Assembly: GCF_009193175.1 (NCBI RefSeq)
Contig: NZ_VUKE01000006.1
Coordinates: 62,001-126,000, forward strand
From: Georgenia ruanii
Lineage (GTDB): Bacteria > Actinomycetota > Actinomycetes > Actinomycetales > Actinomycetaceae
Length of the DNA stretch: 64,000 nt
Direction: 5' to 3'
The notes below the pieces were generated by a model, which saw only the letters and a program-made list of their open reading frames with translations, was not told where the DNA came from and made no database searches. Position numbers and translations under genes: made by a program. Numbering within the stretch: the first letter of the stretch is position 1; the number at the start of each line of letters is the position of its first letter. Positions 1,013-51,714 of this stretch are shown here, one piece after another.

Positions 1013-1028
1013 ATTTATCGTGAGGAAT
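1013..1028. promoter_or_regulatory. Palindromic operator, copy 1
   Basis: ATTTATCGTGAGGAAT, a variant of the window consensus ATTCCTCATGAGGAAT. The right half matches perfectly. It ends 29 bases before the ATG of the KstD-like gene and is followed directly by TACCAT, a -10-like hexamer in the same relative position as at the other copies. Confidence 0.75.
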
Positions 1029-1057
1029 TACCATCAAAGGCGAGTGAGGAAGCTCCT

Positions 1058-2893
1058 ATGAACGTGCGCACGAGCGCTGGCAATGGCGTCGTCGGCTCGG
1101 CCGCAGACGCTGGTCTCCCGGACGAGGTCGACGTCGTCGTAATCGGGTCGGGGGGGTCGGGGCTCATGGCCGCGCTCAGCGCGGCCACTGGCGGTGCCCG
1201 CGTCCTGGTGCTCGAGTCCGAACCCCTGGTGGGTGGCACGACCGCGATCTCTGGCGGTGCGGTTTGGGTGCCCAACCATGGATACTCGTACAAGGCCCTG
1301 AAGACGTGGGACACGCCCGAGGCGGCACGCACGTACCTGCTCGGCGAGGGGCGCGACAAGGTCCTCGACCCTGACGTCGTCGACACGTTCATCGACACAG
1401 CCCCGCAGATGGCGCGGTTCATCGAGAAGCACACGTATCTCAGCTGGATCCCCGTCGTGTGGCCGGACTACACCTCCGACATCCCGGGTGCCTCGAACTA
1501 CAGGTCCCTGTTCCCCGGGCCGTTCTCGCCCGACGTCCTGGGCGAGGCTGCTGCGCTTGTCCGTCCGCCAAAGAAGTCCGGCATGGCGCGCAACCCGCTG
1601 CCGCTCTGGGTCATCAACAAGATCCAGGGAGTCTGGCTGGCCGGCTACGCCATGATCGGCGCCCTCCTCGAGGGGTGCCTCCGCAGGGGGGTGGACGTGC
1701 GGGTGGAGGCCCGTGCCGTGCGCCTCCTTGCCGGCGAGCACGGAGTCACCGGAGTCGTTGTCCGGGCGGGCGGCGAGGAGCGGACCGTACGTGCCTCTCA
1801 GGGCGTGGTTCTCGCGAGCGGCGGGTTCGAGGATTCCGAAGAGCTCACTTCCAAATACCTCGGTGCCCCCTTCCCTGTGCAGGTCAGCCCGCGTGGCCAC
1901 CACGGCGACGCGGTCCGCATGGCGCAAGAGGCGGGCGCCGATCTCGTCGCCATCGACCAGGCGTGGTGGATGCCAGGAATCCAGGTGCCCGGGGAAGAGA
2001 TGGACGGTGCCCCGATCAGTCGTCTGGTCCAGGGGGAGCGGGCGCTGCCGCACACCATCATGGTGAACAGTCACGGTGAGCGGTTCGCCAACGAGGCGGT
2101 GTCCTACAACGACCTCGGCGCGATCATGCGGCAGGCCGACCCGGTGACGGGGGAGATGCCGAATGCCACCGCGTGGATGATCTTCGACGAGTACTACCAC
2201 TCGCACTACGGCTTTCTGAGCACCCCGCCCGGGGGGATGTACCCGCCCAACGTCGTCCAGGCGCCTACGCTCGAAGAACTCGCGCGCAAGTGCGGGATCG
2301 ACCCCGAGGGGCTGGTGCGTACCGTCGAGGAGTTCAACCCCCTGGCGGCGCAGGGCCGGGACCCTTGGTTCAATCGCGGCACCAGCACGTTCGAGCGGTT
2401 CTTCGGCGATCACAACCCGTTCCTCGGCAGCCGGTCCCCGAACGCGTGGGCCCCGTCGGCCACCGAACGCGCCAGGCTCGCGACCGCAACGGCGGTCGCC
2501 CCAGTCGCTGGCCGCGTCATGGCCCGCATCGCGAAGGACCGGAACCCCGCGCGGATGCGCAAGATGCTCGTTCCCTCGCTCGCGAAGATCATGCGACCCG
2601 CCCTGGACAATCCCCCGACCGGTGCTCTGGGCCCTGTCGACACCCCGCCGTACTACGCCGTGAAGGTCGAGGCGAGCGCGATCGGCACGATCGGTGGTCC
2701 GGCCACCGACGCTACCGGGCGAGTCCTCGACACCGAGGGGGTCGTCATTCCTGGTCTGTACGCCGCTGGGAACGTGGGTGGTGCGGCGACGCACGGCTTC
2801 TACGGCGGCGCCGGGGGCACGATCGTGCTCGGGATGGTGTTCGGCTACCTCGCCGGGCGGCACGCAGCATCCCGGGAGCTGCAGGGCAGGTGA
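1058..2893 (+). CDS. FAD-dependent 3-ketosteroid delta-1-dehydrogenase-like oxidoreductase
   Basis: A 611-residue flavoprotein. The FAD-binding motif GSGGSGLMAALSA is at residues ~30-42, followed by LESEPLVGGTTAISGGAVWVPN, typical of the KstD / fumarate-reductase-like FAD dehydrogenase family. NSHGERFANEAVSYND and the C-terminal PGLYAAGNVGGAATHGFYGGAG are also family signatures, and PPYYAVKVEASAIGTIGG resembles the KstD active-site stretch. The family introduces C=C bonds next to a ring ketone; the true substrate here is unknown. The ATG at 1058 was chosen because GAGGA lies just upstream; the open frame starts earlier at 947. It is a single-gene unit behind operator copy 1, ended by hairpins at 2913-3019. 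Confidence 0.85.
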   Translation: MNVRTSAGNGVVGSAADAGLPDEVDVVVIGSGGSGLMAALSAATGGARVLVLESEPLVGGTTAISGGAVWVPNHGYSYKALKTWDTPEAARTYLLGEGRDKVLDPDVVDTFIDTAPQMARFIEKHTYLSWIPVVWPDYTSDIPGASNYRSLFPGPFSPDVLGEAAALVRPPKKSGMARNPLPLWVINKIQGVWLAGYAMIGALLEGCLRRGVDVRVEARAVRLLAGEHGVTGVVVRAGGEERTVRASQGVVLASGGFEDSEELTSKYLGAPFPVQVSPRGHHGDAVRMAQEAGADLVAIDQAWWMPGIQVPGEEMDGAPISRLVQGERALPHTIMVNSHGERFANEAVSYNDLGAIMRQADPVTGEMPNATAWMIFDEYYHSHYGFLSTPPGGMYPPNVVQAPTLEELARKCGIDPEGLVRTVEEFNPLAAQGRDPWFNRGTSTFERFFGDHNPFLGSRSPNAWAPSATERARLATATAVAPVAGRVMARIAKDRNPARMRKMLVPSLAKIMRPALDNPPTGALGPVDTPPYYAVKVEASAIGTIGGPATDATGRVLDTEGVVIPGLYAAGNVGGAATHGFYGGAGGTIVLGMVFGYLAGRHAASRELQGR

Positions 2894-3167: not shown

Positions 3168-3197
3168 TTGACGAGACGAATCGTCATGATGAATACT
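3168..3197 (+). promoter_or_regulatory. Promoter with operator copy 2 for the ABC-importer operon
   Basis: AATCGTCATGATGAAT at 3179-3194 matches the consensus palindrome at 13 of 16 positions. TTGACG at 3168-3173 and GAATAC at 3191-3196 form a -35/-10 pair with 17-base spacing, so the operator fills the spacer. The first gene starts 94 bases downstream of the operator. Confidence 0.75.
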
Positions 3198-3288
3198 TCG
3201 GGGACCGGTGTCGCAATGAAGCGTTGCTCACGACCGTGCCGTCGGTGGAGCTCGTCGCGCCGATGCGTCGAGCTGGAGAGGGATGTCC

Positions 3289-4326
3289 ATGTCTTCCGTA
3301 ACGCCCACGCTCAGTTCGGCACCAGCCGGACCGAAGCCCTCGGGGACCACGCCAGATCTGAGGCAGCGCCTGGCACTGATCGACCAGGGGTTGCTCATTG
3401 CCGGGCTGACGCTGGCGATGGTGGTGATCGGCGCCGTCTTCGTCGACGGAATGTTCACGGTGGAGAACTTCACGACCATGGCGAGGCTGTCCGCCCCGTT
3501 GGCCATCCTGGCCGTGGCGTCGTCCATCGTCATCATGGGCAAGAACGTGGATCTCTCGGTTGTTGCCATCGTCGGCATCGCCGGCATGGCGACCGTCCAG
3601 CTCTGGACCCGGCACGGGTTTGGGGAGTGGCAGGCGATCCTGGCGGTGATCGGCGTGGCGCTGGTGATTGGCCTGCTGAACGGCTGGTTGGTCGCCTACG
3701 TCGAGATCCCGGCGCTCTTCGTCACCCTGGGCACCTGGAAGCTGTTCGAGGGCCTGTTCAACGTCACCCTGCTCGACACCCAGAACTACCCGCTGCCGCG
3801 AGACTCCGAGATCGTCGCGGCACTGGGCAGGGGGTCGGTACCGACGCTCCTCGCTGCAGCCGTTCTGGTCGGAGCGTGGGCATTCATGAAGTACACGACC
3901 TACGGCCAGCTCATCCGGGCCACCGGTGACAGCCCCGCCGCCGCGCGCCTCACCGGCGTGCCTGTGCGGCCGCTGGTCGTCGGGACCTTCGTGATCGCAG
4001 CGTTGCTGGCATGCCTCGTCGGGCTCCTCCAGCTCGGTGTCAACGGGGGCTACAGCAAGGCCTACGGCTCTGGCGAAGACCTGATGTTCAACGCGATCAC
4101 TGCGGCGGTGATCGGCGGCGTCTCCCTCACCGGCGGCCGCGGCACCATCTTCGGTGTCTTCGCCGGCACCGCGTTCATCACGGTCTTCGTCAACCTCATG
4201 ACGCTCCTCAACGTGAGCGTCGTCACCAGCGTGGTCATCCGCGGCGCGATCCTCCTCGCCGCTCTGGCGCTCGATGCGTGGCTCCATCCACGCGATGAAG
4301 AGACAGCGAAGTCCGACGACCTCTGA
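3289..4326 (+). CDS. ABC transporter permease, RbsC/XylH (BPD_transp_2) family
   Basis: A 345-residue inner-membrane permease of a carbohydrate-type ABC importer. Hydrophobic segments are spread over residues ~30-340. Family landmarks are GKNVDLSVVAIVGIAGM, ATGDSPAAARLTGVPV (cytoplasmic coupling loop) and AVIGGVSLTGGRGTIFGVFAG. Two ATGs are possible (3283 and 3289); 3289 gives GGAGAGG a 7-base spacing and is preferred. It is the first gene of a unit running 3289-10215 with binding protein, second permease, two propeller hydrolases and ATPase. Despite the sugar-transporter family, the neighbours suggest the cargo is a lactone- or ester-like compound feeding acyl-CoA catabolism (inference). Confidence 0.9.
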   Translation: MSSVTPTLSSAPAGPKPSGTTPDLRQRLALIDQGLLIAGLTLAMVVIGAVFVDGMFTVENFTTMARLSAPLAILAVASSIVIMGKNVDLSVVAIVGIAGMATVQLWTRHGFGEWQAILAVIGVALVIGLLNGWLVAYVEIPALFVTLGTWKLFEGLFNVTLLDTQNYPLPRDSEIVAALGRGSVPTLLAAAVLVGAWAFMKYTTYGQLIRATGDSPAAARLTGVPVRPLVVGTFVIAALLACLVGLLQLGVNGGYSKAYGSGEDLMFNAITAAVIGGVSLTGGRGTIFGVFAGTAFITVFVNLMTLLNVSVVTSVVIRGAILLAALALDAWLHPRDEETAKSDDL

Positions 4327-4367
4327 CCCCAGCCCCCAGCAGGACCTGATCTCCCGGAAAGGCACCC

Positions 4368-5426
4368 ATGCGCAAGCACAAGCTCAAGACTGTGGCCGCC
4401 GCCTCCTTGGCGGCCGCGGCCCTGTTCACGTCGGGCTGCGCGGTGAGCGCAGGCTCGATCGCCGACGTCGCCGCCGTCACCGAGTCCGACGGCGGGCTCC
4501 CCGTCGCGGTCGACGGTGAGAAAGCGCGATCAATGGTCCACGCGAGCGTGGCGGACAAGAAGATCGCCTACGTTCCGATGAGCCTGCAGTTCGAGCTGAC
4601 AGCGCTGTGGGGCCAGCAGTTCCGGAGCGTCTTCGAGTCCCTCGGTGCCGACTACTCCGAGTCCGACCCGGCCAACAACGTCGACACCCAGGTCCGGATG
4701 ATCGACTCCCTCATCGACGACGGCGTCGACCTGCTCATCATCCAGAACCCGGACGTCGGTGTGCTCTCCCAGCAGGTGCAGCGCGCGCACGAGCGGGGCA
4801 TCTACGTCGTCAGCGTCAACGTGCAGGGCACCCAGTCCTCCGACGCCTACGTCGGTGCCGACCACACGGCCATGGCCCAGGACCTCGCCGAGCGCATGGC
4901 CGACGACTGCAAGGCGGCGAACAAGGACAAGGTGGCCATCATCAGTGGGTTCGCCACCGACTCCAACAGCATCGAGGCCGACAAGGGCTGGGAGCCGGTG
5001 TTCGAGGAGCACGGCCTCGAGGTGGTCTCGAAGCAGCAGAGCAACTACGACGCCACACGAGCGAATGAGATCGCCACGGTGGTCCTGCAGCAGCACCCGG
5101 ACCTGTGCGGATTTGCCGTCATCTTCGACATCACCGCCCTGGGTGCCGCCCAGGCCGTCGAGGCCGCCGGTCTCAAGGGGCAGGTCGGGATCTACAACTT
5201 CGACGCCTCGCGGGTCTGGTGCGAGGCGCTCGCCGACGGCCGGGTGACCGCCGGCGCCGCGTACAACGCCTCGGGTATTGCCGTGGCCGCCGCGTACGCC
5301 GCGCAGGAGCTCTTCCTGGTCGGTGCCCCCGCGGGCACGCGGCGGGTCGCGGGCTACGTGCCGCACGAGTTGGCGGACAAGGACAACTACGAGAACGTGC
5401 CGGGAGCCTGCTATGGCGTCAACTGA
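4368..5426 (+). CDS. ABC transporter substrate-binding lipoprotein, RbsB-like
   Basis: A 352-residue extracytoplasmic binding protein. The N-terminus is MRKHKLK followed by a hydrophobic stretch and the lipobox FTSGC, so Cys24 should be lipidated. The mature part has the periplasmic-binding-protein type 1 pattern: IAYVPMSLQFELTALWGQQF, LIDDGVDLLIIQNPDVG, VAIISGFATDSNS and FAVIFDITALGAAQAVEAAG. It sits 41 bases after the first permease in the same operon and is the ligand receptor of the importer. Ligand is not predictable from the sequence. Confidence 0.92.
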   Translation: MRKHKLKTVAAASLAAAALFTSGCAVSAGSIADVAAVTESDGGLPVAVDGEKARSMVHASVADKKIAYVPMSLQFELTALWGQQFRSVFESLGADYSESDPANNVDTQVRMIDSLIDDGVDLLIIQNPDVGVLSQQVQRAHERGIYVVSVNVQGTQSSDAYVGADHTAMAQDLAERMADDCKAANKDKVAIISGFATDSNSIEADKGWEPVFEEHGLEVVSKQQSNYDATRANEIATVVLQQHPDLCGFAVIFDITALGAAQAVEAAGLKGQVGIYNFDASRVWCEALADGRVTAGAAYNASGIAVAAAYAAQELFLVGAPAGTRRVAGYVPHELADKDNYENVPGACYGVN

Positions 5427-5465
5427 TGTCGTGACGCGCGCCGCTACGCAGGAGGGCGCAGCCAG

Positions 5466-7637
5466 ATGAGCACCCGCACAGTGGACGCCTTCACCCGGAC
5501 GACGGGTCGTCCGTGGGTTGCCCGCTTCGCGCCACGCCGGGCGCTGGGCGACCTGTTGTCCAAGTCCTGGATGGAAGGGGCGGTGCCGATCGGGCTGGCG
5601 GTCCTCCTCGGGATGGTCGCCGTCCTCACCACGCCGCAGATCCTCTCGGGCGGTGACCGGGGGATCATCATGGCCCAGTTCGCTGAGGTGGGCCTTCTCG
5701 CCATCGCGCTGACCCTGGTGCTCGTCGGTGGCGGCTTCGACCTCTCGATCGGCGCGATGATGGGCATGGCTGCCATCGGCAGCCTGATCCTCTTCCGGGT
5801 CTACGAGCTCCCGGTCGAGGTCGTGGTCACGCTCACCCTGGTCGGCGGCGCGCTCCTCGGGGCGGTGAACGGGTTCTTCGTGGCGATCGTGAAGACCCGG
5901 CCGTTCATCACGACGCTCGTCACAGCCCTGACCTTCCGGGCGTTGATCGAGCTGATCCAGGGCGCGTACAGCCAGCGGATGATCTACCCCCGCTTCGAGA
6001 TCGACTGGTTGTTCATCGGGCACGGAACCGTCGCCGGAATTCCCACGGCGCTGTTCTTCCTCGGTGTCATTCTCATCGGCACCCATATCGCGCTCACCCG
6101 CTCGCGGTGGGGCTGGTGGCTCACGGCGGTCGGTAGCGACCGCCGCTCGGCCCGGCGCAACGGCATCCCGGTCAACGCCGTGTCGTTCGTCAGCTACGTG
6201 GCGAGCGGACTGCTGTGCGCCCTGGCCGGTCTGTTCATGTCGTCCCGTCAGGGCAGCACCGCGGCCAGCGTCGGGGCGGGGTACGAGATCATCGCACTGA
6301 CGGCCGTGGTGCTCGGTGGCGTGAGCCTGCGCGGGGGGCGCGGCTCGGTCATCCGTGCGACGACCGGTGCGCTCATCGTCGCCGCGATCGGGCAGGCCAT
6401 CTTCCGGCGGCAGTGGGACACCGCGATGGAGACGGTCGTGCTGGCCCTGGTGCTCCTCGTGTTCGCCGTGCTGGACCAGAAGTGGGGCAAGCACCGCAAC
6501 AACCTCGCGCAGAAGCTGACCATCTCGCCGTTCCGCTACGAGCCCGGGCCCCTCGAGGACGTCACCGATCCCCGCAGCAAGTGGGCGGTCAACGATGCGC
6601 TGTCCAACGCCCTCCCGATCGGCCTGGGCAAGATCGAAGGGGCCGAGGACTGCGTGGCGGACGCCGAGGGCAGCGTCTTCTGCGGGGACCGCCGAGGGTG
6701 GGTGTGGAAGTTCTCAGGCGAGAACTACGAGCACGGGGAGATCTATGCCCGCACGGGAGGCACCCCGCTCGGTCATGTGTGGGACACCGATGGCAACCTT
6801 GTCGTCGCCGTGAGTGGCATGGGCGTGTGCCGGATCGACGGCGATCGGCAGGTCGAGTGGCTCGCCACCCGGGCGCCGCGGTCCAGGTGGCAGCTCTTCG
6901 ACGACAGCGCCCTGCGCTTCGCAGACGACCTGGACATCGCACCCGACGGCTCGATCTACGTCAGCGACGCCTCCACCCGGGCGAGCACCGCAAACTATCA
7001 GGCGGTGGTCGCGGAGTACCGCCCGAACGGTCGCGTGCTGCGGATCGATCCAGACGGTTCGATCGAGACGGTGGTGACCAACCTCGCGGCAGCCAACGGC
7101 ATCGCGACCGCCCACGACGGCCAGTCGATCCTGATCGCCAGCACCACGATGTTCCGCGTGGACCGTCTGTGGATCAGCGGCCCGAAACAGGGGCAGTTCG
7201 AACCGGTCCTGGAGAACCTTCCCGGTGCGCCCGACAACGTCAACCGCGCGTCGGACGGCAACTACTGGCTCAGCTTCGTCGGAATGCGCACCCCGTTCTC
7301 CGACCTGGTCCTGCGCCATCCGGACTTCCGACTGAGGATGACCAAGCAGCTGCCGGTGGACGACTGGGTGGTGCCTCAGTGGAACGTCTCCTGCGTCGCG
7401 AAGTTCAGTGAGTCCGGCGAGATCCTCAAGGTCCTGTGGGACCGGGGCGGGAAGCGGCACCCGATGGTCACCTCGATGAGCGAGTACAACGGTTTCCTCT
7501 ACCTCGGCGGCCTGGAGAACAACCGCATCGGTCGGGTCCAGCTCGACCCCGAGGACGTGGGGCCGATCGATCCCTATCGGATTCCCGGCACGGGGGCCGC
7601 TCCCCAGTCGCCCACCATCGAGGAGGTGCCGGTGTGA
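5466..7637 (+). CDS. Fusion: ABC permease (RbsC family) + strictosidine-synthase-like beta-propeller
   Basis: A 723-residue two-part protein. Residues ~35-340 are a second RbsC-type permease (GGGFDLSIGAMMGMAAIGS, AVGSDRRSARRNGIPVNAVSF, VVLGGVSLRGGRGSVIRATTG). Residues ~370-710 form a beta-propeller of the SMP-30 / strictosidine-synthase-like type: RFADDLDIAPDGSIYVSDAS, ANGIATAHDGQSILIAS (~residue 542), RLWISGPKQGQF and LPGAPDNVNRASDGNYWLSF (~585). Family permeases are ~330 residues, so the propeller is an added C-terminal module. RbsC-type C-termini face the cytoplasm, so the propeller is probably tethered at the inner face of the channel, possibly acting on freshly imported substrate (inference). 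No internal stop or frameshift is visible. The stop overlaps the GTG of the next gene. Confidence 0.88.
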   Translation: MSTRTVDAFTRTTGRPWVARFAPRRALGDLLSKSWMEGAVPIGLAVLLGMVAVLTTPQILSGGDRGIIMAQFAEVGLLAIALTLVLVGGGFDLSIGAMMGMAAIGSLILFRVYELPVEVVVTLTLVGGALLGAVNGFFVAIVKTRPFITTLVTALTFRALIELIQGAYSQRMIYPRFEIDWLFIGHGTVAGIPTALFFLGVILIGTHIALTRSRWGWWLTAVGSDRRSARRNGIPVNAVSFVSYVASGLLCALAGLFMSSRQGSTAASVGAGYEIIALTAVVLGGVSLRGGRGSVIRATTGALIVAAIGQAIFRRQWDTAMETVVLALVLLVFAVLDQKWGKHRNNLAQKLTISPFRYEPGPLEDVTDPRSKWAVNDALSNALPIGLGKIEGAEDCVADAEGSVFCGDRRGWVWKFSGENYEHGEIYARTGGTPLGHVWDTDGNLVVAVSGMGVCRIDGDRQVEWLATRAPRSRWQLFDDSALRFADDLDIAPDGSIYVSDASTRASTANYQAVVAEYRPNGRVLRIDPDGSIETVVTNLAAANGIATAHDGQSILIASTTMFRVDRLWISGPKQGQFEPVLENLPGAPDNVNRASDGNYWLSFVGMRTPFSDLVLRHPDFRLRMTKQLPVDDWVVPQWNVSCVAKFSESGEILKVLWDRGGKRHPMVTSMSEYNGFLYLGGLENNRIGRVQLDPEDVGPIDPYRIPGTGAAPQSPTIEEVPV

Positions 7638-8713
7638 GCCACTGGCGCAGAGACCTGCTGGAGTTCATCAGTCCGGGACGTGTCCGGCGCAAGGCGATTC
7701 CTCCGCTCGAGGCGGGCTTGCGCCCCAACACGCTGCTCGAGGACGCAACAGTCCTTGCGGAGGTGCGCCCGTTCGACGACGTGGCCTTGCTCGGCGGTGA
7801 CGTGGTCGTGACCGCTGGGCGGTCCTTGCTTCGACTCGGAGAGGACGGTCTCGCGACGGTCGTCGAGTTCCCAGCCGCGGCCGGCGCGCTCACCACCACC
7901 GCTGAGGGCGTGGCCGTGGCGGTCGAGGGCCACGGGCTCAGCGCGGTCATGCCCGACGGGACGGTGTCGGTGATCACCGCAGACCCCCGCCTCCACACCT
8001 GCGTCACGGCGCTCACCGCCCTGGGCGACGGGTCCCTGCTCGCCTGTGTCGGCTCCACGGCGACCGGCGAGTGGGCCCGCAACCTGGTCGCCAGGGACTC
8101 CGCGACCGGCATGCTCTTGCGGATCAGCGACGGCCAGGTCGAGGAGCTGGATCGCGGGCTGGCCTGGCCGTCGGGTGTGTGCGACGACGGCGAGGGCGGG
8201 TTCCTGCTGTCGACCAGCGTGGGACACCGCATCGAACGCCGGTCGCTGGCCTCCCCCGACCGGGCGGGAGTTCCCCTCCTGGACAACCTGCCGGGCTACC
8301 CGGGCCGGATCACGCCGGCGTCACGAGCCGGGGAGTGGTGGGTCGCTATGCCCTACCTGCGGAACCGCGCGACCGAGCTCATCCTCGAGCACGACGAGCT
8401 GCTCGCCGAGATGGTCGGGTCCATGGAACCGGAGGCCTGGCTGGTGCCCAGCCTGGCCATCGAGAACGTCTACCGCACACCGCTGCAGACCGGCTCGGTG
8501 CGTGTGCTGGGTGAGATCAAGCCCTGGGCCCCGTCGCGGACCTACGGTCTGGTCTTCCGCGTGACCGCCGAGGGCCGGGTGGTCGCCAGCGCGCACTCCC
8601 GGGCCGACGGCCGCATGCACGGCGTCACCGGCGTCCTGGAGTGCGAACCCGGATCCGTCGTGGTCGCCTGCCGTGGCGCGGGCACCATCCTCATGTTGGG
8701 AGAAGATCGCTGA
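7634..8713 (+). CDS. SMP-30/strictosidine-synthase-like beta-propeller protein
   Basis: A 359-residue soluble protein without a signal peptide. GTG at 7634 overlaps the preceding TGA and has AGGAGG at 7621-7626. LLDNLPGYPGRITPASRAGEWWVAM corresponds to the PDN-containing blade of the fused propeller upstream, but the Asp-Asn of that motif is replaced (PGYPGRI), so the metal or active site may differ. GLAWPSGVCDDGEGGFLLS is a second propeller blade. The family contains lactonases, arylesterases and strictosidine-synthase-like hydrolases. Together with the fused copy it gives the importer operon two propellers, one membrane-tethered and one free. A degenerate paralogue with a structural role is also possible. 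Confidence 0.75.
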   Translation: MSHWRRDLLEFISPGRVRRKAIPPLEAGLRPNTLLEDATVLAEVRPFDDVALLGGDVVVTAGRSLLRLGEDGLATVVEFPAAAGALTTTAEGVAVAVEGHGLSAVMPDGTVSVITADPRLHTCVTALTALGDGSLLACVGSTATGEWARNLVARDSATGMLLRISDGQVEELDRGLAWPSGVCDDGEGGFLLSTSVGHRIERRSLASPDRAGVPLLDNLPGYPGRITPASRAGEWWVAMPYLRNRATELILEHDELLAEMVGSMEPEAWLVPSLAIENVYRTPLQTGSVRVLGEIKPWAPSRTYGLVFRVTAEGRVVASAHSRADGRMHGVTGVLECEPGSVVVACRGAGTILMLGEDR

Positions 8714-10811: not shown

Positions 10812-10858
10812 AAAGATCATGAGAAATACTTGACATCGACTACGGACCGTTCCAGACT
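10812..10858 (+). promoter_or_regulatory. Operator copy 3 and promoter elements for the first TRAP binding protein
   Basis: AAAGATCATGAGAAAT at 10812-10827 is a variant of the palindrome. It is followed by TACTTG, and TTGACA lies at 10830-10835. CAGACT 17 bases further on could be a weak -10. The gene begins 123 bases after the operator, so the start site may lie in this downstream promoter. Confidence 0.65.
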
Positions 10859-10950
10859 CCATCAGACCGTTCACCGCAACGTCCGGGGACGGTCTCTCTC
10901 TACGGCCCCATGAGGGGCACGCCGTCATGGGTTCGAGGAGGAATCTGAAG

Positions 10951-12482: not shown

Positions 12483-12498
12483 ATATCTCATGATGAAT
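12483..12498 (+). promoter_or_regulatory. Palindromic operator, copy 4
   Basis: ATATCTCATGATGAAT, followed by TGTTGACACAAC. The dctQ start is 88 bases downstream of the operator. The TTGACA just 3' could be the -35 of a promoter, which would put the operator immediately upstream of it, as at copy 3. Confidence 0.7.
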
Positions 12499-39298: not shown

Positions 39299-39371
39299 CC
39301 ACCATCAACGACCCCGAGAGGGGTCAACTTTCAACCGGCGCCAGGGGGTCAAGATTCGACCGGCGTTGACA

Positions 39372-39796: not shown

Positions 39797-39825
39797 TTGC
39801 CTTAATCCTCATGAGGAATTACTGT
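39797..39825 (+). promoter_or_regulatory. Promoter with operator copy 11 for the CoA-ligase operon
   Basis: AATCCTCATGAGGAAT at 39804-39819 sits between TTGCCT (39797-39802) and TACTGT (39820-39825), spacing 17. The first gene starts 59 bases downstream of the operator. Confidence 0.82.
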
Positions 39826-40967: not shown

Positions 40968-41031
40968 TGCAGGCCCCAGCTTGGAATGAACCACATCATC
41001 GATGCGCGCGAACGGCTCCGAGGAGGACCAC

Positions 41032-41325: not shown

Positions 41326-41336
41326 AAGGCGCACGA

Positions 41337-42812: not shown

Positions 42813-42825
42813 GGCAAAGGTGAAG

Positions 42826-43719: not shown

Positions 43720-44189
43720 CCGAGGGCAGCGGCGGGACGAAGGTCTTCGCAAGCATCGACGAGTTCTGCGCGGCTGAGGGAACGCTCATCGGAGCCAGTG
43801 AATGGTTCACAATCGACCAGGAGCGCATCAACGCCTTCGCGGACGTCACCGAGGACTGGCAGTGGATCCACGTGGATCCCGTGCGCGCCGCGTCCGGACC
43901 GTATGGGGCGCCCATCGCTCACGGCTACCTGACGCTCTCGCTGATCCCGCGGCTCGGCGGAGCGATCTTCCGGGTCGAGGGCAGCGACATGCAGGTCAAC
44001 TACGGCCTCAACAAGGCCCGGTTCCCCCAGGCGGTGACCGCTGGCGCGAGCATCAGGGCGGTGGCAACGCTGCTGTCGACCCAGCGCACGGCGGCCGGTA
44101 TCCAAGCGGTCATCCAGTACACGATCGAGATCAAGGGGCAGAACAAGCCCGCCTGCGTCGCGGAGACCGTGCGTCTTCTCGTCACCTGA
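43716..44189 (+). CDS. MaoC-family enoyl-CoA hydratase
   Basis: A 157-residue single hot-dog protein. FADVTEDWQWIHVDPVRAASGPYGAPIAHGYLTLSLIP is the hydratase-2 motif with catalytic Asp and His. It should add water to an enoyl-CoA, giving the (R)-3-hydroxyacyl-CoA for the upstream SDR. ATG 43716 overlaps the previous TGA. Confidence 0.93.
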   Translation: MTEGSGGTKVFASIDEFCAAEGTLIGASEWFTIDQERINAFADVTEDWQWIHVDPVRAASGPYGAPIAHGYLTLSLIPRLGGAIFRVEGSDMQVNYGLNKARFPQAVTAGASIRAVATLLSTQRTAAGIQAVIQYTIEIKGQNKPACVAETVRLLVT

Positions 44190-44192
44190 CCA

Positions 44193-44222
44193 GTTCGTCC
44201 TACGACCCGTTCGTCCTACGAC
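44193..44222. repeat. Short tandem repeat before the thiolase
   Basis: GTTCGTCCTACGAC occurs at 44193-44206 and again at 44209-44222, 16 bases apart, filling the gap between the MaoC stop and the thiolase. Function unknown. Confidence 0.7.
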
Positions 44223-44234
44223 ATGGAGCAACTC

Positions 44235-45449
44235 GTGCCTGAAGCAGTCATCGTCTCGACGGCCCGGTCCCCGATCGGCCGTGCGACCAAGGGCTCGCTC
44301 ACCCACTTCCGGCCGGACGACCTTGCCGCGACGATCGTGCGCGAGGCGCTCGCGAAGGTGCCGGAGCTGGACCCGGCCGACGTCGAGGACCTGATGCTCG
44401 GGTGCGCTCAGCCCGCGGGCGAGGCCGGGTACAACCTCGCCCGCGCCGTCGCCGTGCTGGCCGGTCTCGACACGGTGCCCGGCACGACCGTGAACCGATA
44501 CTGCGCGTCGAGCCTGCAGACCACACGCATGGCCTTGCACGCGATCAGGGCCGGGGAAGGATCGGTCTTCATCTCGGCGGGGGTCGAGACAGTCAGCCGA
44601 TACGTGCACGGCAAGGCGGACGGTCTGCCCGGCACCCACAATCCCGTCTTCGACGAGGCGCAGGCTCGTAGCGCCCAGCACGCTGAGGCCGGGGGCGCCT
44701 GGTCCGACCCGCGGAGCGCTGGATCCCTCCCCAACCTCTACCTCACCATGGGGCAGACCGCGGAGAACGTTGCGCAGCTGCGCAACGTCTCGCGTGCCGA
44801 TCAGGACGAGTTCGCCGCGTTGAGCCAGCAGCGCGCGGCACGGGCGCTCGCCGAGGGGTTCTGGGCGCGCGAGATCACCCCAGTGCCGGCCCCCGACGGG
44901 CACCTGATCACCGCGGACGACGGTCCCCGGCCAGGGGTCACCATCGAGGGGCTGGCTGCGCTCCAACCGGTTTTCCGGACAGACGGCACCGTCACCGCGG
45001 GGAACTGCTGCGCCCTCAACGACGGAGCCGCCGCTCTCGTGATCATGTCGGCCGATCGGGCGTCGGAGCTGGGCGTCCGGCCGCTGGCGCGAATCGTGTC
45101 GACCGGCGTCAGTGGCATCTCACCGGAGATCATGGGCCTCGGCCCGGTGGAGTCCTCCCGGAAGGCCCTGCGCGCGGCCGGCATGACCATCAGAGACGTA
45201 GACCTCGTGGAGATGAACGAGGCGTTCGCGGCCCAGGTGATCCCATCTGCCCGCGAGCTTGAGGTGGATCCCGAGACCCTCAACGTCCATGGCGGCGCGA
45301 TCGCCGTGGGCCACCCCTTTGGGATGACCGGCGCCCGTCTGGTGACGACCTTGGTCAACGGTCTCGAGTGGAGCGACAAGGAGATCGGCCTCGCCACCCT
45401 CTGCGTGGGCGGGGGACAGGGCATGGCCCTGGTGCTGCAGCGGCTCTAG
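44235..45449 (+). CDS. Thiolase (acetyl-CoA C-acyltransferase)
   Basis: A 404-residue thiolase. The nucleophile is Cys90 in NRYCASSLQTTRMA, and NVHGGAIAVGHPFGMTGARL plus TLCVGGGQGMALVL carry the catalytic His and second Cys. It completes beta-oxidation by CoA-dependent cleavage. GTG 44235 has GGAG six bases upstream and gives a normal N-terminus (PEAVIVSTARSPIGRA); the upstream ATG 44223 is an alternative with no ribosome-binding site. A hairpin follows the stop. Confidence 0.94.
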   Translation: MPEAVIVSTARSPIGRATKGSLTHFRPDDLAATIVREALAKVPELDPADVEDLMLGCAQPAGEAGYNLARAVAVLAGLDTVPGTTVNRYCASSLQTTRMALHAIRAGEGSVFISAGVETVSRYVHGKADGLPGTHNPVFDEAQARSAQHAEAGGAWSDPRSAGSLPNLYLTMGQTAENVAQLRNVSRADQDEFAALSQQRAARALAEGFWAREITPVPAPDGHLITADDGPRPGVTIEGLAALQPVFRTDGTVTAGNCCALNDGAAALVIMSADRASELGVRPLARIVSTGVSGISPEIMGLGPVESSRKALRAAGMTIRDVDLVEMNEAFAAQVIPSARELEVDPETLNVHGGAIAVGHPFGMTGARLVTTLVNGLEWSDKEIGLATLCVGGGQGMALVLQRL

Positions 45450-45888: not shown

Positions 45889-47133
45889 TCAGAATGCCCG
45901 TTGTTCGAGAGGAAACCGCGGATCGAGTGACCAGACGCGCAGGATCAGGACGGTCGCCGCGCCGATGACGAAGGCGCCCGCCGAAGAGAAGGCGGCGCTT
46001 GGTCCTACCCAGGCCCATGACAGACCGAGGAGCAGGCCGCCCACGGGAATCAGTCCTGCGTAGCAGAGCTGGTTGAGACTCATGACTCGACCGCGGTGGC
46101 TGTTCGCGATCGAGCCCTGGATCACGCGAAAGCACAGCGTGAGAGTCGTGAACTGGCAAGCGGCCGCGGCCATGACGAGGACCAGCTGGACGGGCTCACT
46201 CCTTGCCCACCCCAAGGCGCCGACACAGAGTCCGAGTCCCAGCATGCTTGTGCATATGCGCCGGAGGTCCCAGGAGGTCGGCATTGGCACCGCCGCCAGC
46301 ACCACGCCCACGATCGCGCCGAGGCCGGTCGCGGACATCAGGACGGCGAACCAAGTGCTGTCGTCGGTGGCCAGGGTTGCCAGTGAAGCGATCTGCGAGA
46401 GGTAGGACGACCCGAAAAGGGAGACCGCGCCGACTGCCATAAGGCTCGCCATGAAAGGCCACCTCTCGGTGGCATGGGCCGCGCCGCTCCGGATCGACTG
46501 GGAGAAGCTCGAGGAGACGGCAGAACCGCGTGTCTGGGAGGCGCGCGTGGTCAGGGCCAGTGCGACGATGGCAACGCACAAGACGCAGTGGACGACCATC
46601 GTCAGCGAATTTCCCGCGGCTGCGATGAGGATCGCTGCGAGAGCCGGTCCGAGGAACCTGGACAGCGTGATGCCGAAGCTATGCAGCGTGACAGCCGTCG
46701 TTGTCAGGCCCCGCGGGACCGACTCGGCCACGAGCGCCTGGCCGGCGGGCTGACTCGCTGCCAACGCAAGCCCGAAGACGAAGCCACTCACCATGAACGT
46801 CGTCGGTGCAGTGCGACCGGCAAGGAGGAGTGTGACGATGCTCGCGCTCACCGCCAGGATGAGCAGGTGGGAGGCGGCGAGAAGGCGGAGCCGATCGAAC
46901 CGGTCCGCCCACACGCCCGCATGCAGCGAGACCAGCAGGAACGGCACCAGTGTCGCGAAGTAGAAGAGACCGAGGGCCATCGGGTCAGCGTCGGTCTGGC
47001 TCGCCACCATCCCCTGGAAGGTAAGGATCACCATCCAATAGCCGAGGTGGGGAAGGGTTCCCAGTGCCCATGCTCTTCGGTACAGAGGTCTACGGACCGT
47101 TGCCAGCCACCGATTGTCGCCTTGCCGGGTCAC
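45889..47133 (-). CDS. MFS transporter (EntS/DUF894-like)
   Basis: A 414-residue membrane protein with about 11-12 hydrophobic segments. VSLHAGVWADRFDRLRLL is the MFS loop-2/3 motif A and SHRGRVMSLNQLCYAGLIPVGG resembles its repeat in the second half, as in enterobactin-exporter-like transporters. GTG 47133 overlaps the TGA of the upstream SDR remnant (GTGA), so its translation depends on that remnant. The frame is open further upstream but that part codes for the remnant in another frame. Probable exporter of a pathway product or toxic intermediate; substrate unknown. Confidence 0.85.
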   Translation of the reverse strand: MTRQGDNRWLATVRRPLYRRAWALGTLPHLGYWMVILTFQGMVASQTDADPMALGLFYFATLVPFLLVSLHAGVWADRFDRLRLLAASHLLILAVSASIVTLLLAGRTAPTTFMVSGFVFGLALAASQPAGQALVAESVPRGLTTTAVTLHSFGITLSRFLGPALAAILIAAAGNSLTMVVHCVLCVAIVALALTTRASQTRGSAVSSSFSQSIRSGAAHATERWPFMASLMAVGAVSLFGSSYLSQIASLATLATDDSTWFAVLMSATGLGAIVGVVLAAVPMPTSWDLRRICTSMLGLGLCVGALGWARSEPVQLVLVMAAAACQFTTLTLCFRVIQGSIANSHRGRVMSLNQLCYAGLIPVGGLLLGLSWAWVGPSAAFSSAGAFVIGAATVLILRVWSLDPRFPLEQRAF

Positions 47134-47489
47134 CGTGCGAGGAATCCTGCATCGACGGCGAGGCGGTGTCCGGTGACGACGGAGGACGCAACGGAGGACC
47201 TGTCCGAGCACAGCCAAAGGCTGGCGTGGGCGACCTCGTCGGGCGTGCCCAGGCGGCCGGAGAGGCTGAGCGTGAACTCGTCGTGGGCCACGACTCCTGC
47301 ATGTTCACGGGGCTTTCGGATCATCGGGGTATCGATGGCACCGGTGAGCACCGCATTGACGCGGACGAGTTGTTGGCCGTACTCCGCAGCGGCGATTTTC
47401 GTCAGGCCGAGCACCCCGTGCTTGACGGCGCCGTAGGCGGCGTTGTTGGGTCGCGCGCGGATCGAGCTAGTTCCTGGCACCTGTGGCAT
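47130..47489 (-). pseudogene. SDR remnant (C-terminal half) retaining start signals
   Basis: The 119-residue frame contains NNAAYGAVKHGVLGLTKIAAAEYG, with the SDR Tyr-Lys pair, and ends normally (HRLAVDAGFLAR). The N-terminal Rossmann half with the cofactor motif is absent; only ~10 unrelated residues precede. An ATG with GAGGGG upstream still allows translation, and the stop couples to the MFS gene by GTGA. It is likely inactive as an enzyme but may persist because it carries expression signals for the transporter. Confidence 0.7.
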
Positions 47490-47541: not shown

Positions 47542-47557
47542 GTTCCTCATGATAATT
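47542..47557 (-). promoter_or_regulatory. Palindromic operator, copy 12
   Basis: Plus strand GTTCCTCATGATAATT. It lies 52 bases upstream of the minus-strand SDR remnant/MFS unit. The left arm is intact, the right arm has two mismatches. Between it and 47697 no gene is seen. Confidence 0.7.
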
Positions 47558-47696: not shown

Positions 47697-48983
47697 TCAC
47701 GGCTGCTCGAACGCTTCTCCACCGACGACGACGGCGCGTACCTGAGGCTCCCCGGACCGCAGTGGGGCCTTCAGCAGACAGAGGTCTGCGAGCGCCCCGA
47801 CCTCGACCCGACGGGCCGCCCCGCCGGGGTCATCTGGAGGGCTGAGGTAGCCAGTCAGCACCTCGACGGGGTTCACTCGCTCACGGGGGCCGAGCACTCG
47901 GCCCCGGCGAGTACGCCGCGCGGCGGCGTCGGCCATGGTCCGCCAGGGGTCGGCATCGCCGTACGGCGCGTCGCTCGAGGCGGCGACGCGCACCCCCGCA
48001 TCAAGGAGGCTGCGATAGGGGTAGAGGCGCGCAATGTCCTCCCGGTCGAGGTCGCGCAAGTACTCATCTCCGCGGAGCCGGAGGAAGCTGGGCTGGGTCA
48101 CCACGGCAAGCCCGAGTGCCGCCAGTGCCTCCGCGATGCCAATGGGCACCACCGCGGCGTGCTCGATGCGGTCACCGGGGACAGACCCGACCTCACGCAG
48201 TGCCGCCAGCGTCAGCAAGAGTGACTCCGGCGTCACGCAGTGCACCGCAACGGGCCGGCCGGCGGCGTGGGTGCCGCCGATGACCTGGACGAGGTCGTCA
48301 TACGTGGGGAGATCGTGGTCGCGCAGCAGCAGCTTGCGCGGGCCTGTGAGTCCGCCGAGCAGCGTCACCCTGATGCCGCTCAGTGCCGTCAGCGCCTCCA
48401 CGGCAGCCGGGGACAGGTCAGGGGTGGCGTCCGTGACGCCGGTGATGCCGTACCGGTGGAGCCGCGCCACCACGCCGCCGAGATCGGGCAAGGTCGACGG
48501 CAGGGCGGCGCGGAGCCGCGCGTCGTACCTGAAGAGCCGGCCCGTGGGCTCACCGTGTTTGTCTCGTTCGACGTCGGCGGTCCCATCCAGCCAGGAGCTG
48601 ACCTCGGCCAGGGCGCGGCTATTGAGCATCCACAGCGCGCCGCTGCGGTGCTGCACGCGCACGGGCACGTCTGAACGCACGGCGTCGAGGTCGTGCCGGT
48701 CCGGGGTGGAGGCGGTTCCGAAACCTCGCACCCATCCCTCGTTCACGGGGGCGGTTGCCAGAGCGTCGAGCGACTCCGAGCAGTCGATCGACGCCATCGC
48801 CGCTGCCATCGCAAAGAGATGGAGGTGGTGGTCGTGCAGCCCGGGAAGCAGGGTCCCGCCTCGAGCCTCGACCACGCGCGAGCTGCCGCACAGGCCCGCG
48901 CCGATCTCCACGATGCGGTCGCCTTCGATGCGTACGTCGACTACCGCTTCCTCGAGCTCAACCTGCCGCAACAGGAGGCTCAC
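47697..48983 (-). CDS. Amidohydrolase family protein (amidohydrolase_3-like)
   Basis: A 428-residue metal-dependent hydrolase. LPGLHDHHLHLFAMA has the HxH metal motif, PVAVHCVTPESLLLTLAALREVG and RIEHAAVVP give further His residues, and ASSDAPYGDADPWRTMADA carries the final catalytic Asp. The closing segment VEVGALADLCLLKAPL is the small beta-domain. The longer upstream frame was rejected: GTG 48983 overlaps the TGA of the CoA-transferase and has GGAG 7 bases upstream. It may open an amide, lactam or cyclic imide. Confidence 0.88.
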   Translation of the reverse strand: MSLLLRQVELEEAVVDVRIEGDRIVEIGAGLCGSSRVVEARGGTLLPGLHDHHLHLFAMAAAMASIDCSESLDALATAPVNEGWVRGFGTASTPDRHDLDAVRSDVPVRVQHRSGALWMLNSRALAEVSSWLDGTADVERDKHGEPTGRLFRYDARLRAALPSTLPDLGGVVARLHRYGITGVTDATPDLSPAAVEALTALSGIRVTLLGGLTGPRKLLLRDHDLPTYDDLVQVIGGTHAAGRPVAVHCVTPESLLLTLAALREVGSVPGDRIEHAAVVPIGIAEALAALGLAVVTQPSFLRLRGDEYLRDLDREDIARLYPYRSLLDAGVRVAASSDAPYGDADPWRTMADAAARRTRRGRVLGPRERVNPVEVLTGYLSPPDDPGGAARRVEVGALADLCLLKAPLRSGEPQVRAVVVGGEAFEQP

Positions 48984-50161
48984 ATGGGTCTCCGCGACGG
49001 CGCGGCGACGGGAAAGCGGCCCGTCGCGGACTCCACCCACCAACCGTCCGACGCCCGTGAGACGACGTGCGGCTCGATCGTCCCCGATGCCGCGTCGGCG
49101 GCGACGTCGTGCATCGAGACGTCGATGAGCAGTGCGTGCTCGCCCAGCAGCGCCTCTGACGCGGCAGCCGCTGCGACGACGCCGGCGAGGGGGTCGCCCA
49201 GCGCATCGCCACAGGGCAGCACGTCACCGGAGTCCTCGACATAGAGCCCCGCACCCACGGCCACGTCGTCGCCGAAGCCCACCGCGTTGGACGAACGTCC
49301 CGCTGCTGTGATCGAGAGCCACGTGATGCCTGCCTCGACGACGTCCTCGGCCACCAGCCCGAGCTGGCGCAGCGCCCGTGGACGTGAGGACTCCAGGACG
49401 AGGTCGGCCGACAGCACCAGTCGCCGGAGCTCCTCTCGCCCTGCGGAGGACGAGAAGTCGACGGAGACCATCTCGTGGCCCGCGTGCATGAGGTTGAAGA
49501 ACTCGGCCGGGCCGCGTCGGGCACCGTCCGGCCTGGACGTGCTCTCGACCTTCGTCACGGTCGCACCGGTGCGGCCCAGCAGGTGAGCACAGAGCGGGCC
49601 TGCCCACATCGCTGTCAGGTCGACGACGACGGGGTGCGCGCCCACGGACCTGCGTCGTCCCCCGCGTGCAGTCAGGACACCCGGCCGCACCGAGGGGCGC
49701 CGCTCGGCGCAGGGAAGTCCGAGCAGGCGTGCCCGTGCGGCGGCCTCCGCGGTGTCGACCCAGGCGGCCCAGGCCAGGACGGAGGGCCAGCCCCACGCGT
49801 CGGCGTCTTCGACGAGTGCGGGCACCAGCTCCAGGTCGCTGGGGCGGGCCAGCGAGAGCCCCATCCAGCCGTCCCTGGTCCGGAAGGTGCGGAATGCGCC
49901 GCCGCAGGACGAGGGCCCGCTCCGATGGAGCCCGGTGATCGCGGCGCGCTCGCCGAGCACTCGAACGTCAGGCAGCTCCGGTCGTGTGCCGGTGCGCCGG
50001 AAAGCCGCGTCGGCGACACGTCGGAGTCCGGACGCCGTCGTGGACGCGGGCTGACCAGGCGCCGCCAGCGGTGGGCCGTCGGCCCTGCCCGTCAGCGCCA
50101 TGGCACCTGACCATGCCCAGAGCTCCAGCTCAGACGCGGGCATCGACTCAGACGCCGGCAT
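48980..50161 (-). CDS. CaiB/BaiF-type CoA-transferase with rearranged domain order
   Basis: A 393-residue protein of class III CoA-transferases, but the order of parts is unusual. Residues ~15-165 resemble the middle and small-domain part of normal members (SGAMALTGRADGPPLAAPG, then RDGWMGLSLARPSDLELVPAL). The Rossmann start, normally at residue 1, comes at ~178 (PVVVDLTAMWAGPLCAHLLGRTGATVTKVES). Near the C-terminus CGDALGDPLAGVVAAAAASEALL carries an Asp at the catalytic place. A circular permutation or a cut-down fused double CoA-transferase fits. ATG 50161 overlaps the upstream gene by 14 bases; ATG 50143 lies in an 18-bp direct repeat. Confidence 0.8.
   Translation of the reverse strand: MPASESMPASELELWAWSGAMALTGRADGPPLAAPGQPASTTASGLRRVADAAFRRTGTRPELPDVRVLGERAAITGLHRSGPSSCGGAFRTFRTRDGWMGLSLARPSDLELVPALVEDADAWGWPSVLAWAAWVDTAEAAARARLLGLPCAERRPSVRPGVLTARGGRRRSVGAHPVVVDLTAMWAGPLCAHLLGRTGATVTKVESTSRPDGARRGPAEFFNLMHAGHEMVSVDFSSSAGREELRRLVLSADLVLESSRPRALRQLGLVAEDVVEAGITWLSITAAGRSSNAVGFGDDVAVGAGLYVEDSGDVLPCGDALGDPLAGVVAAAAASEALLGEHALLIDVSMHDVAADAASGTIEPHVVSRASDGWWVESATGRFPVAAPSRRPM
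50126..50161 (-). repeat. 18-bp tandem duplication at the CoA-transferase start
   Basis: On the minus strand the first 18 bases of the gene (coding MPASES) are followed by a near-identical 18 bases (MPASEL), doubling the start codon. One of the two ATGs was probably created by slippage. Confidence 0.7.
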
Positions 50162-51104
50162 CGACCAGCCCCCACGCGAGCGCGGTGTCGAGGTCGATCC
50201 GGCGTCCGGTCAGTGCCATGTAGGCGGTCCGATAACGGCCGATCCGGCGGGTGACGCTGACCGTGCCACCAGCGCCTGGCACCAACCCCAGCGACAGCTC
50301 GGGAAGCATGAACCACGCTCCCTCGCGCGCCTCGACCCGGGCGGCGAATGCGGAGAACTCCAGGCCGGCCCCGATGCACGCGCCGTGCACTCTCGCCACG
50401 ACCCGTTCACGAATCCGGTGCACGTGGAGACCGGCACTCTGCTCGAGGCGCACCTGGTGGGCGGCGACGACATCGGGCGCCGTGCCGAACTCGTCGAGAT
50501 CGCCGCCGCTGCAGAACGATGGCCCAATGCCGCGCAGCTCGACCTGGGTGATCGACTCATCCAGAAGTGCCACCTGAAGACCCTCGATGAGCCGGTCGCG
50601 GACTGCCCGCCCGAACGCGTTGTGTCGCCCCGGACGATTCAGCGCGAGAGTGAGCACATCCCCCTCGCGTGAGAACAGCACGGGATCGTCGCCGGTGGGT
50701 ACCTCCCGTCGAGGCGTCGCGGCGCGCCAGCTCCGGAAGTCCGGCCCGGCCAGGAGCATCGAGTACGCGAGCGACTCCGCCACGAGCGCGTCTGCCACGT
50801 CGAGCTGAGCGGTCAGTGGAAGGAGCGAAGCGAGAGCCCGCGAGGCGCCCGGCGCTCGCGTGACGGTTTCACGGATGAGGTCGAGATCGTCCGGCTCGGG
50901 TGCCACCCAAAAACGCCCCGGTCCGTCGGGCGCCAGGGTCAGCGTGAGGGCACTGAGGACATGGGCGGACTCGGGCGGGAGCGCCTGGCTGCTCACGCCG
51001 ACCAGGACTGTGGTGCGCGCACGGCGTGCGTACGCCTCGCCGACGGCCGGAGACCAGTGAGTGTTGTCGAGGTCCACGATCTCCATGGCTTCGGCCGCTG
51101 TCAC
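50148..51104 (-). CDS. Enoyl-CoA hydratase/isomerase-like protein with N-terminal extension
   Basis: A 318-residue protein. The crotonase core begins only at residue ~135 (VLTLALNRPGRHNAFGRAVRDRL), with oxyanion-hole loops GIGPSFCSGGDLDEF and GACIGAGLEFSAFA, and LGLVPGAGGTVSVTRRIG. It then stops after GLVDAGV, so the usual ~70-residue C-terminal helical part is missing, while ~130 residues of unrecognised, helix-rich sequence precede the core. GTG 51104 follows GAGGAG; ATG 51086 is an alternative. First gene of a minus-strand set with the CoA-transferase and amidohydrolase. Confidence 0.78.
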   Translation of the reverse strand: MTAAEAMEIVDLDNTHWSPAVGEAYARRARTTVLVGVSSQALPPESAHVLSALTLTLAPDGPGRFWVAPEPDDLDLIRETVTRAPGASRALASLLPLTAQLDVADALVAESLAYSMLLAGPDFRSWRAATPRREVPTGDDPVLFSREGDVLTLALNRPGRHNAFGRAVRDRLIEGLQVALLDESITQVELRGIGPSFCSGGDLDEFGTAPDVVAAHQVRLEQSAGLHVHRIRERVVARVHGACIGAGLEFSAFAARVEAREGAWFMLPELSLGLVPGAGGTVSVTRRIGRYRTAYMALTGRRIDLDTALAWGLVDAGV

Positions 51105-51714
51105 CGCGCTCCTCACGACTACCTTCTCTTTCGGTCCGCGGCGGCCGAGATGCCACCAACGGCGGGCCACGCGGGCCGCGAAAGACCGGGAGAGCGCCCG
51201 CTGCTTCCGCGAATATACCTCACGAAATTCGGCGTCCGGCGTGGCCTGCAGGAGTCCCACCCGTCGTGCCCGCGCTCGCCCATGCCGTTCAGTGGCCCTC
51301 GCAGGAACCAGCAAAGATCATGAGGAATATTGACGCGAGTGACGCTGCATGCCAATGTCATCGCTCACACGGCGGCAACACGACGGGCTGCCGGGCTAGC
51401 AGTTCTTCGCCGAGGCAGAGAGGGGTGATGGAGGTGGTCCCGTCACTCGCCTTTCTCGGACCTGGGCCCCGGTACTGCGCGTGCGCTCCTCGCCCCGGAG
51501 CCCATCACGACCCCCGACGGGGTGGCCCGCGGCCGCAGACGGCTCTCGACATCGTCAGCGGTGACACCGAGCAGGCCACCGGTCGGTCTCGGGCGTCTCT
51601 ACGAAGCGTTACCCAGATCGGTCGCGAGGGGCCTGGCGGCACGCCGACGGGCCGGTCACTTGGTGCCAGCGCTGAGCGCTTGAAGCGGCAACGACAACAC
51701 ACAAGGAGTTCTCC
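51105..51714. other. Divergent intergenic region
   Basis: About 610 bases between minus-strand and plus-strand units. It contains operator copy 13 and no convincing gene. The minus-strand frame that continues to 51314 reads through this stretch but lacks family pattern upstream of 51104. Confidence 0.5.
51313..51328. promoter_or_regulatory. Palindromic operator, copy 13
   Basis: AAAGATCATGAGGAAT followed by ATTGACGCGAG; nearly the same as copy 3. It lies 208 bases from the minus-strand hydratase start and ~390 from the plus-strand TPP gene, so it could control either or both. Confidence 0.7.

Follow-up and report, generated by a model that had tools for sequence, protein, structure and literature searches.

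Which protein, if any single one, reads the short palindrome that recurs in front of gene after gene in a catabolic locus of Georgenia ruanii? The locus lies in a stretch of 64,000 bp (assembly GCF_009193175.1, contig NZ_VUKE01000006.1, positions 62,001 to 126,000), here called the window, for which an initial annotation had listed 13 copies of a 16-bp palindrome before transcription units and proposed one regulon under one dedicated regulator. The palindrome is very probably the operator of an FCD-type GntR protein encoded at 30683–31510, which would repress about a dozen operons until relieved by an acid or acyl-CoA, regulator, operator and operons together forming a mobile package; the case is built from sequence comparison. 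GntR-controlled catabolic regulons are, as a kind of system, already known. Neither this regulon nor its operator class, the breadth of the package or its spread is described in the titles and abstract openings found in the open-access literature searched, and the palindrome sequence itself was not found there either.

Read directly from the window, all 13 of the 16-mers are present where they had been placed, and they are related to one another. Compared with ATTCCTCATGAGGAAT they carry, in order along the window, 3, 3, 5, 3, 3, 1, 4, 3, 4, 1, 1, 4 and 4 mismatches, and 4–7 of the 8 base pairs are symmetric. The window holds eight matches to ATTCCTCATGAGGAAT at no more than three mismatches, where shuffled sequence gives an expectation of 0.02. 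A matrix of 20 positions, for which 30560 and 33670 were set aside and the other 11 sites served as training set, returned leave-one-out scores of 20.6–31.5 bits for the training sites. A second matrix, made from the 11 window sites and two sites to the right of the window, finds 12 window sites at 15 bits or more, every one of which also reaches at least 20 bits; 100 windows of 64 kb simulated with a first-order Markov model contained 17 sites of at least 15 bits and none of at least 20, the best scoring 18.7, against the 12 real ones. The supported sites form one motif, at 20–34 bits, with the consensus WWTCMTCATGAKGAAT. The same consensus comes from the 69 distinct sites of at least 20 bits gathered from this and related loci, and its layout can be written TCMT-C-AT-G-AKGA.

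The number of copies and their extent need some adjustment. The ninth copy (33670) has no TCATGA core, yet it scores 20.2 bits though left out of training, and a counterpart precedes the orthologous gene in two Streptomyces genomes. The seventh (30560), which lies before the GntR gene, scores 10.0–10.9 bits; 10.0 bits is reached at 11 other places in 164 kb, five of them in the window, and because this is background level the copy is unsupported and was rejected as a demonstrated autoregulatory site. Twelve of the 13 claimed sites in the window therefore stand. The statement that none lies beyond 51.4 kb is true of the window, and the contig has two more strong sites further on. These were found by the matrix scan at window-equivalent positions 68907, before a gene for an NMT1-type binding protein of an importer, and 71888, before a zinc-dependent alcohol dehydrogenase gene, so the regulon continues past the window.

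Could the palindrome be a dispersed repeat, or a chance similarity among AT-rich promoters? At single sites one half of the palindrome often matches well and the other poorly, and the looser palindrome TTCNTCATGANGAA occurs at least once in 112 of the 394 genomes of the class, so that single matches mean little; two of its six copies in the host genome lie on other contigs (C16 and C28). The six copies are nevertheless set against at most three in each of the 393 other genomes, and the sequences flanking the palindrome are not alike between copies. The initial annotation had proposed a genome scan for scatter. Run by sequence pattern over the host genome (4.42 Mb in 36 contigs; the matrix scan covered 164 of the 174.9 kb of the window's own contig), it found the exact words confined to this locus: all seven occurrences of TCATGAGGAAT fall within the 65–134 kb interval of contig C33, and all ten of TCATGAKGAAT fall in the same 70-kb stretch, at promoters, with none for the control. 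When one mismatch is allowed, TCATGAGGAAT has 40 matches in the genome against four for its reversed control, 17 of them (13 sites) in this stretch, one at another place on C33 and the remaining 22 on different contigs. Shuffles, simulations and genome-wide confinement together reject a chance or repeat origin, which is now scarcely conceivable.

The position of the sites is that of promoter elements. As had been claimed, none lies inside a gene: each of the contig's 14 sites is either intergenic or no more than 150 nt from the 5′ end of a longest-possible open reading frame (ORF). The same applies to 56 of 58 sites of at least 18 bits in this and eight related stretches (the Rhodococcus and control loci were left out of this count), in which 58–73% of the sequence is deep inside ORFs. 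A TTGAC word lies within 28 bp of the centre at 10 of the 14 sites, compared with 7% for random positions and 11% for upstream ones. The palindrome occupies the spacer between the −35 and −10 boxes at 14759 (TTGACT-N16-TATGCT), at 18583 (TTGACG-N17-TAGTGT) and, by eye, at 39804. At 10812, 12483 and 51313 the TTGAC word starts 1–2 nt past the site, an arrangement that could also suit an activator, or a protein acting both ways, with the −35-abutting copies as activator sites. Such a role is improbable: the spacer-filling sites are typical of repression, and the FCD protein AlkR is a repressor released by acyl-CoA (PMC12042122).

The protein that best fits these sites is the GntR protein already noted in the initial annotation, a product of 275 residues encoded at 30683–31510 (forward strand); those proteins between the window sites that were scanned include no other transcription factor. 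Within the 295-residue ORF 30623–31510, the GntR winged-helix domain PF00392 is present at residues 61–120 (E 4.7e-13), together with a C-terminal helical FCD domain, PF07729 (E 1e-12). The AlphaFold2 model is nearly all-helical past the wing (mean pLDDT 71.8), and its best Foldseek matches, at modest TM-scores, are NanR 6on4 (TMq 0.39) and LldR 2di3 (TMq 0.56–0.58). The three other matches to the protein in the host genome have 24–31% identity. Position 28 of its helix-turn-helix (HTH) is Ala67, which aligns with an Arg of LldR; in 14 aligned relatives the position is Ala in 13 and Pro in one, and the remaining recognition helix is nearly invariant. According to a comparative study of the family, Arg at this position contacts G in FadR and is the most frequent residue, not a universal one, and operators of the FadR subfamily consist of TKGT/ACMA boxes with GT and AC 2–3 nt apart, exceptions being named (PMC4494728). 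The operator described here, taken over the 69 distinct sites, has neither the TKGT/ACMA boxes nor the GT/AC pair. Because that source names exceptions, the mismatch marks a variant operator and does not exclude the protein from the FadR/FCD subfamily. We infer a register in which TKGT is replaced by TCMT around a wider centre.

Comparative genomics strongly supports one dedicated regulator and one regulon. The related loci that were read come from Streptomyces sp. NWU339 and NTH33, Geodermatophilus amargosae, three further genomes (G324, G111 and G172) and four Rhodococcus megaplasmids. In each of 12 other genomes or plasmids that carry a regulator relative (42–79% identity), the stretches read contain 2–11 sites of at least 20 bits; the ten that were found with the regulator as bait have 3–11 each, and G324 has nine, five of them on the regulator's contig. 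When motif words are counted over whole genomes, 7 of 8 fall at the regulator locus in Streptomyces sp. NWU339, 6 of 9 in G111, 3 of 4 in Geodermatophilus and the single one in G172; in the fragmented assemblies of G324 and Streptomyces sp. NTH33, the regulator's contig holds 5 of 10 and 3 of 6, respectively. The same genes tend to carry the site. It lies upstream of CoA-transferase orthologues at 9 of 10 loci (three of the nine are near-identical Rhodococcus plasmids), and the tenth gene is inside a P450 operon, as in the window. Sites also precede the orthologues of enoyl-CoA hydratase (2/2) and ferredoxin reductase (2/2), both in two similar Streptomyces loci, and those of the 3-ketosteroid-dehydrogenase-like (KstD) and SnoaL-like genes (1/1 each). 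Streptomyces sp. NWU339 (L006 and L009) and Geodermatophilus amargosae (L008 and L010) each have two regulator copies on one contig, and the Geodermatophilus sites are mostly weaker.

Since these loci had been fetched with the regulator, an acyl-CoA dehydrogenase (26895–28211), whose relatives at E 1e-130 occur in 71 of the 394 genomes, was chosen as a bait-independent test. Ten control loci were read (nine of 20 kb and one of 18 kb), all lacking the regulator at E 1e-60. Sites of at least 20 bits appear at two of them (best scores 31.3 and 28.3), the only two that possess a GntR relative of 42–43% identity. The best scores at the other eight are 18.7, 14.6, 14.5 and, in five cases, at most 9.7. 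One control locus is a second cluster of the host itself (L060, contig C23:1–18000), with Ltp-like and acyl-CoA dehydrogenase genes 59–65% identical to those of the window; it lacks a GntR relative, and its best palindrome does not exceed 14.5 bits.

These results also bear on whether the GntR gene might be a mere neighbour and the palindrome be bound by another regulator, such as the MarR protein encoded at 56574–57110 or an unlinked TetR or IclR protein. The MarR gene lies 5 kb past the last window site and ahead of the two further contig sites, and a palindrome lacking GT/AC is uncommon among operators of FadR-type GntR proteins (PMC4494728). Against this, the palindrome accompanies the GntR gene in 13 genomes or plasmids, the host's own included, eight of the ten control loci have neither a close GntR relative nor a site of at least 20 bits, and the base-reading Arg is altered in this very GntR clade. 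Control by another protein is thus quite improbable.

Several observations do count against the GntR protein and its operator as the key to the whole package. The regulator itself was the bait for ten of the 12 genomes or plasmids compared. Both sites located deep inside ORFs are in Geodermatophilus. Orthologues frequently lack an upstream site: it is present at 5 of 11 for the kinase, 2 of 6 for the aldehyde dehydrogenase, 1 of 5 for ECH2, 0 of 3 for the P450 and 0 of 1 for the thiolase, and many of the genes without one look operon-internal. The GntR gene has no site of at least 18 bits within 450 bp upstream in 9 of 12 orthologues, and this, with the background score at 30560, means that autoregulation is not general. 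No orthologues of at least 45% identity to the importers, the major facilitator superfamily (MFS) gene or the alcohol dehydrogenase occur in the relatives' stretches, so their membership in the regulon is deduced from this genome alone, as is that of the universal stress protein. Finally, the control locus scoring 18.7 bits (L057, on contig C87 of G031) has 18–19-bit sites and a GntR protein of just 29% identity. It carries related genes and a TRAP transporter 51–62% identical to that of the window, and may represent a sister regulon whose operator has shifted.

How would the operator work? A GntR/FCD dimer would sit on the palindrome, in the −35/−10 spacer or abutting the −35 box of sigma70-type promoters, and thereby block transcription. 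About a dozen operons would be repressed in this way. Their products would take the substrate up (ABC, TRAP and NMT1-type importers), hydroxylate it by P450, activate it with CoA and shorten its side chain by beta-oxidation with retro-aldol cleavage, and they would also provide for export. The FCD domain would bind an acid or acyl-CoA derived from the substrate, and the repressor would thereby be released. Relief by such a ligand is proposed because of the analogy with FCD repressors such as AlkR, and substrate-responsive control is plausible from the regulator family: effectors in the FadR/FCD subfamily are carboxylic acids or acyl-CoAs that alter DNA binding.

The regulator is rare. At E 1e-60, relatives of the regulator occur in 4 of the 394 genomes of the class, the host included; the same three relatives came up when 35 genomes from a single family were searched, and 4 of 72,556 plasmid records contain one. 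The regulator is absent at E 1e-25 from 58 other relatives, eight of them congeneric species. Called genes over the 22 kb to the left of the window mostly have a third-position GC content of 0.94–0.99, compared with mostly 0.77–0.95 for the window genes. From this shift, the rarity of the regulator and its absence in congeners, the island looks horizontally acquired. More broadly, the package would move horizontally among actinobacteria, with regulator, operator and enzyme core kept while importers differ. Within L002–L005 a single tRNA was found, a tRNA-Lys lying in L002 some 34 kb to the left of the window.

The genes behind the sites can be followed from left to right. On the forward strand, the operator at 1013–1028 (30.9 bits) precedes a KstD-like flavoprotein gene (1058–2893), whose product matches 3-oxosteroid 1-dehydrogenase in the PDB (E 2e-73); an equivalog label was rejected, as its NCBIfam scores fall below the curated cut-offs among the 25 best of 52 matches. 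Its orthologue in Streptomyces sp. NWU339 (75% identity) has three sites upstream. The next site (3179–3194, 25.9 bits, forward) stands before a monosaccharide-type ABC importer operon (3283–10215, forward; operon by spacing only) for a permease, a binding protein, a second permease ORF and an ATPase. That second ORF (5466–7637) is unusual in fusing an ABC permease (BPD_transp_2) to a strictosidine-synthase/SMP-30-like (SGL-like) domain, which might serve lactone or ester hydrolysis during uptake. Three forward sites then stand before TRAP genes, all forward: that at 10812–10827 (28.5 bits; TTGACA starts 2 nt after) precedes the binding protein DctP (10927–12234), that at 12483–12498 (28.2 bits; TTGACA again 2 nt after) precedes DctQ/DctM (about 12587–14658), and that at 14759–14774 (34.0 bits) precedes a TRAP binding protein, an aldehyde dehydrogenase and a short-chain dehydrogenase/reductase (SDR) at 14830–18519.

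The forward site at 18583–18598 (30.5 bits) heads the P450 operon (18643–30507, forward; again by spacing only), which encodes a SnoaL-like protein, a CYP101-like P450, a 4Fe-4S ferredoxin, an acyl-CoA dehydrogenase, two class III CoA-transferases, an Ltp2-like thiolase/aldolase, a ChsH2-like protein, two more acyl-CoA dehydrogenases and a ferredoxin reductase (29311–30507). Sites had been placed before both ferredoxin reductases; this one is the last gene of the operon and lacks an individual site, and the claim holds for the other (35158–36870). Beyond the unsupported copy at 30560–30575 (forward) and the GntR gene, two reverse-strand sites follow: 32548–32563 (30.2 bits) before a universal stress protein with a Usp domain (about 32095–32520, reverse), and the degenerate 33670–33685 (20.2–20.8 bits) before an enoyl-CoA hydratase (about 32771–33640, reverse), whose two Streptomyces orthologues are 82–84% identical. 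The forward site at 35096–35111 (28.8 bits) precedes the second reductase, an FdxA-like ferredoxin/pyridine-nucleotide reductase fusion (forward), and the upstream site of its two Streptomyces orthologues scores 21.3 bits. Between this gene and the next operon lies a complete-looking IS21-type element (37177–39371) with IstA-like and IstB-like genes and 52-bp inverted ends that are 79% complementary.

The site at 39804–39819 (33.3 bits, forward) precedes a kinase/CoA-ligase operon (39879–45449, forward) for an APH-type kinase (39879–40967), a 107-residue protein that has no Pfam or NCBIfam match, an AMP-dependent CoA ligase, an SDR, a MaoC hydratase and a thiolase. The last two window sites are on the reverse strand. 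That at 47542–47557 (26.3 bits) is directly followed by a C-terminal SDR fragment (47130–47489, reverse), which looks like a gene remnant still under this operator, and then by the MFS transporter gene (45889–47217, reverse). That at 51313–51328 (30.1 bits) precedes an enoyl-CoA hydratase/CoA-transferase/amidohydrolase operon (47697–51314, reverse; start codon uncertain), the orthologues of which have three sites upstream in Streptomyces sp. NWU339 and, in four other cases, none within 450 bp. To the right, a second catabolic cluster (53422–63911) includes the MarR gene as its own and has no palindromes of at least 15 bits; its genes for an aldehyde dehydrogenase, an acyl-CoA dehydrogenase, an enoyl-CoA hydratase and a 3-hydroxyisobutyrate-dehydrogenase-like protein resemble those of valine catabolism.

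What might the package degrade? Together the gene products would import a compound, hydroxylate it, activate it with CoA and oxidize its side chain with retro-aldol cleavage, and this set suggests a terpenoid- or steroid-like acid, branched or cyclic. Among solved P450s the nearest are of the CYP101 type, including CYP101D1 and camphor 5-monooxygenase; the Ltp-like protein matches the lipid-transfer protein 6ok1; for the kinase, the matches are 9o56 and the N-terminal part of ACAD11 (E 5e-33). The nearest matches of these three proteins fix no single substrate. A wider reading, for which the balance stands about even, holds that the regulators form a distinct FCD-type GntR clade with the operator TCMTC-AT-GAKGA, and that this clade governs a mobile package for one terpenoid- or steroid-like acid, recurring in several actinobacterial lineages with interchangeable importers; the operator would replace TKGT...ACMA because of the change from Arg to Ala at the base-reading position. 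If so, the operator could be used as a tag for finding the complete pathway in any genome. The locus offers a testable regulator–operator pair for a multi-operon catabolic package and a natural specificity change in GntR proteins in which residue and base differ together. As the motif collects pathway genes, importers included, across genomes, the substrate and a matching biosensor would become tractable.

Several known systems invite comparison. As in levulinate (Lva) catabolism, an APH-type kinase gene lies beside genes for a CoA ligase and a small protein, and the kinase resembles ACAD11 of the ACAD10/11 4-hydroxyacid pathways in sequence; in the Lva-type pathway an APH-type kinase acts on 4-hydroxyacyl-CoA, a possible activity of the protein here. 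The gene set is another. The actinobacterial cholesterol regulons of KstR and KstR2 include KstD, an Ltp2-ChsH2-type aldolase, a P450 and acyl-CoA dehydrogenases, and KstR proteins are TetR-type, with other operators. The catabolic gene types are alike, whereas the regulator here is GntR; a KstR-type steroid regulon was rejected, as the sole regulator among the proteins scanned between the window sites is GntR/FCD and not TetR. With the FadR/FCD subfamily (FadR, LldR, PdhR, NanR, VanR) the protein shares the winged helix and FCD domain, and the system shares palindromic operators and acid catabolism, but its operator lacks TKGT/ACMA and HTH position 28 is Ala instead of Arg. Precedents for subfamily members off the consensus are BioR, with the operator TTATMKATAA, and NanR, with direct repeats of TGGTATAW (PMC4494728); their sequence and symmetry differ from those of the present operator. 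A functional parallel is AlkR, a VanR-type FCD repressor of alkane degradation in Pseudomonas which sits over the −10 region at an oxygenase promoter until long-chain acyl-CoA releases it (PMC12042122). Its operator, ATTGTCAGACAAT, is near the canonical form, unlike the one described here, and its reported targets comprise alkB2 together with a few further alkane genes, compared with a package of a dozen operons in G. ruanii.

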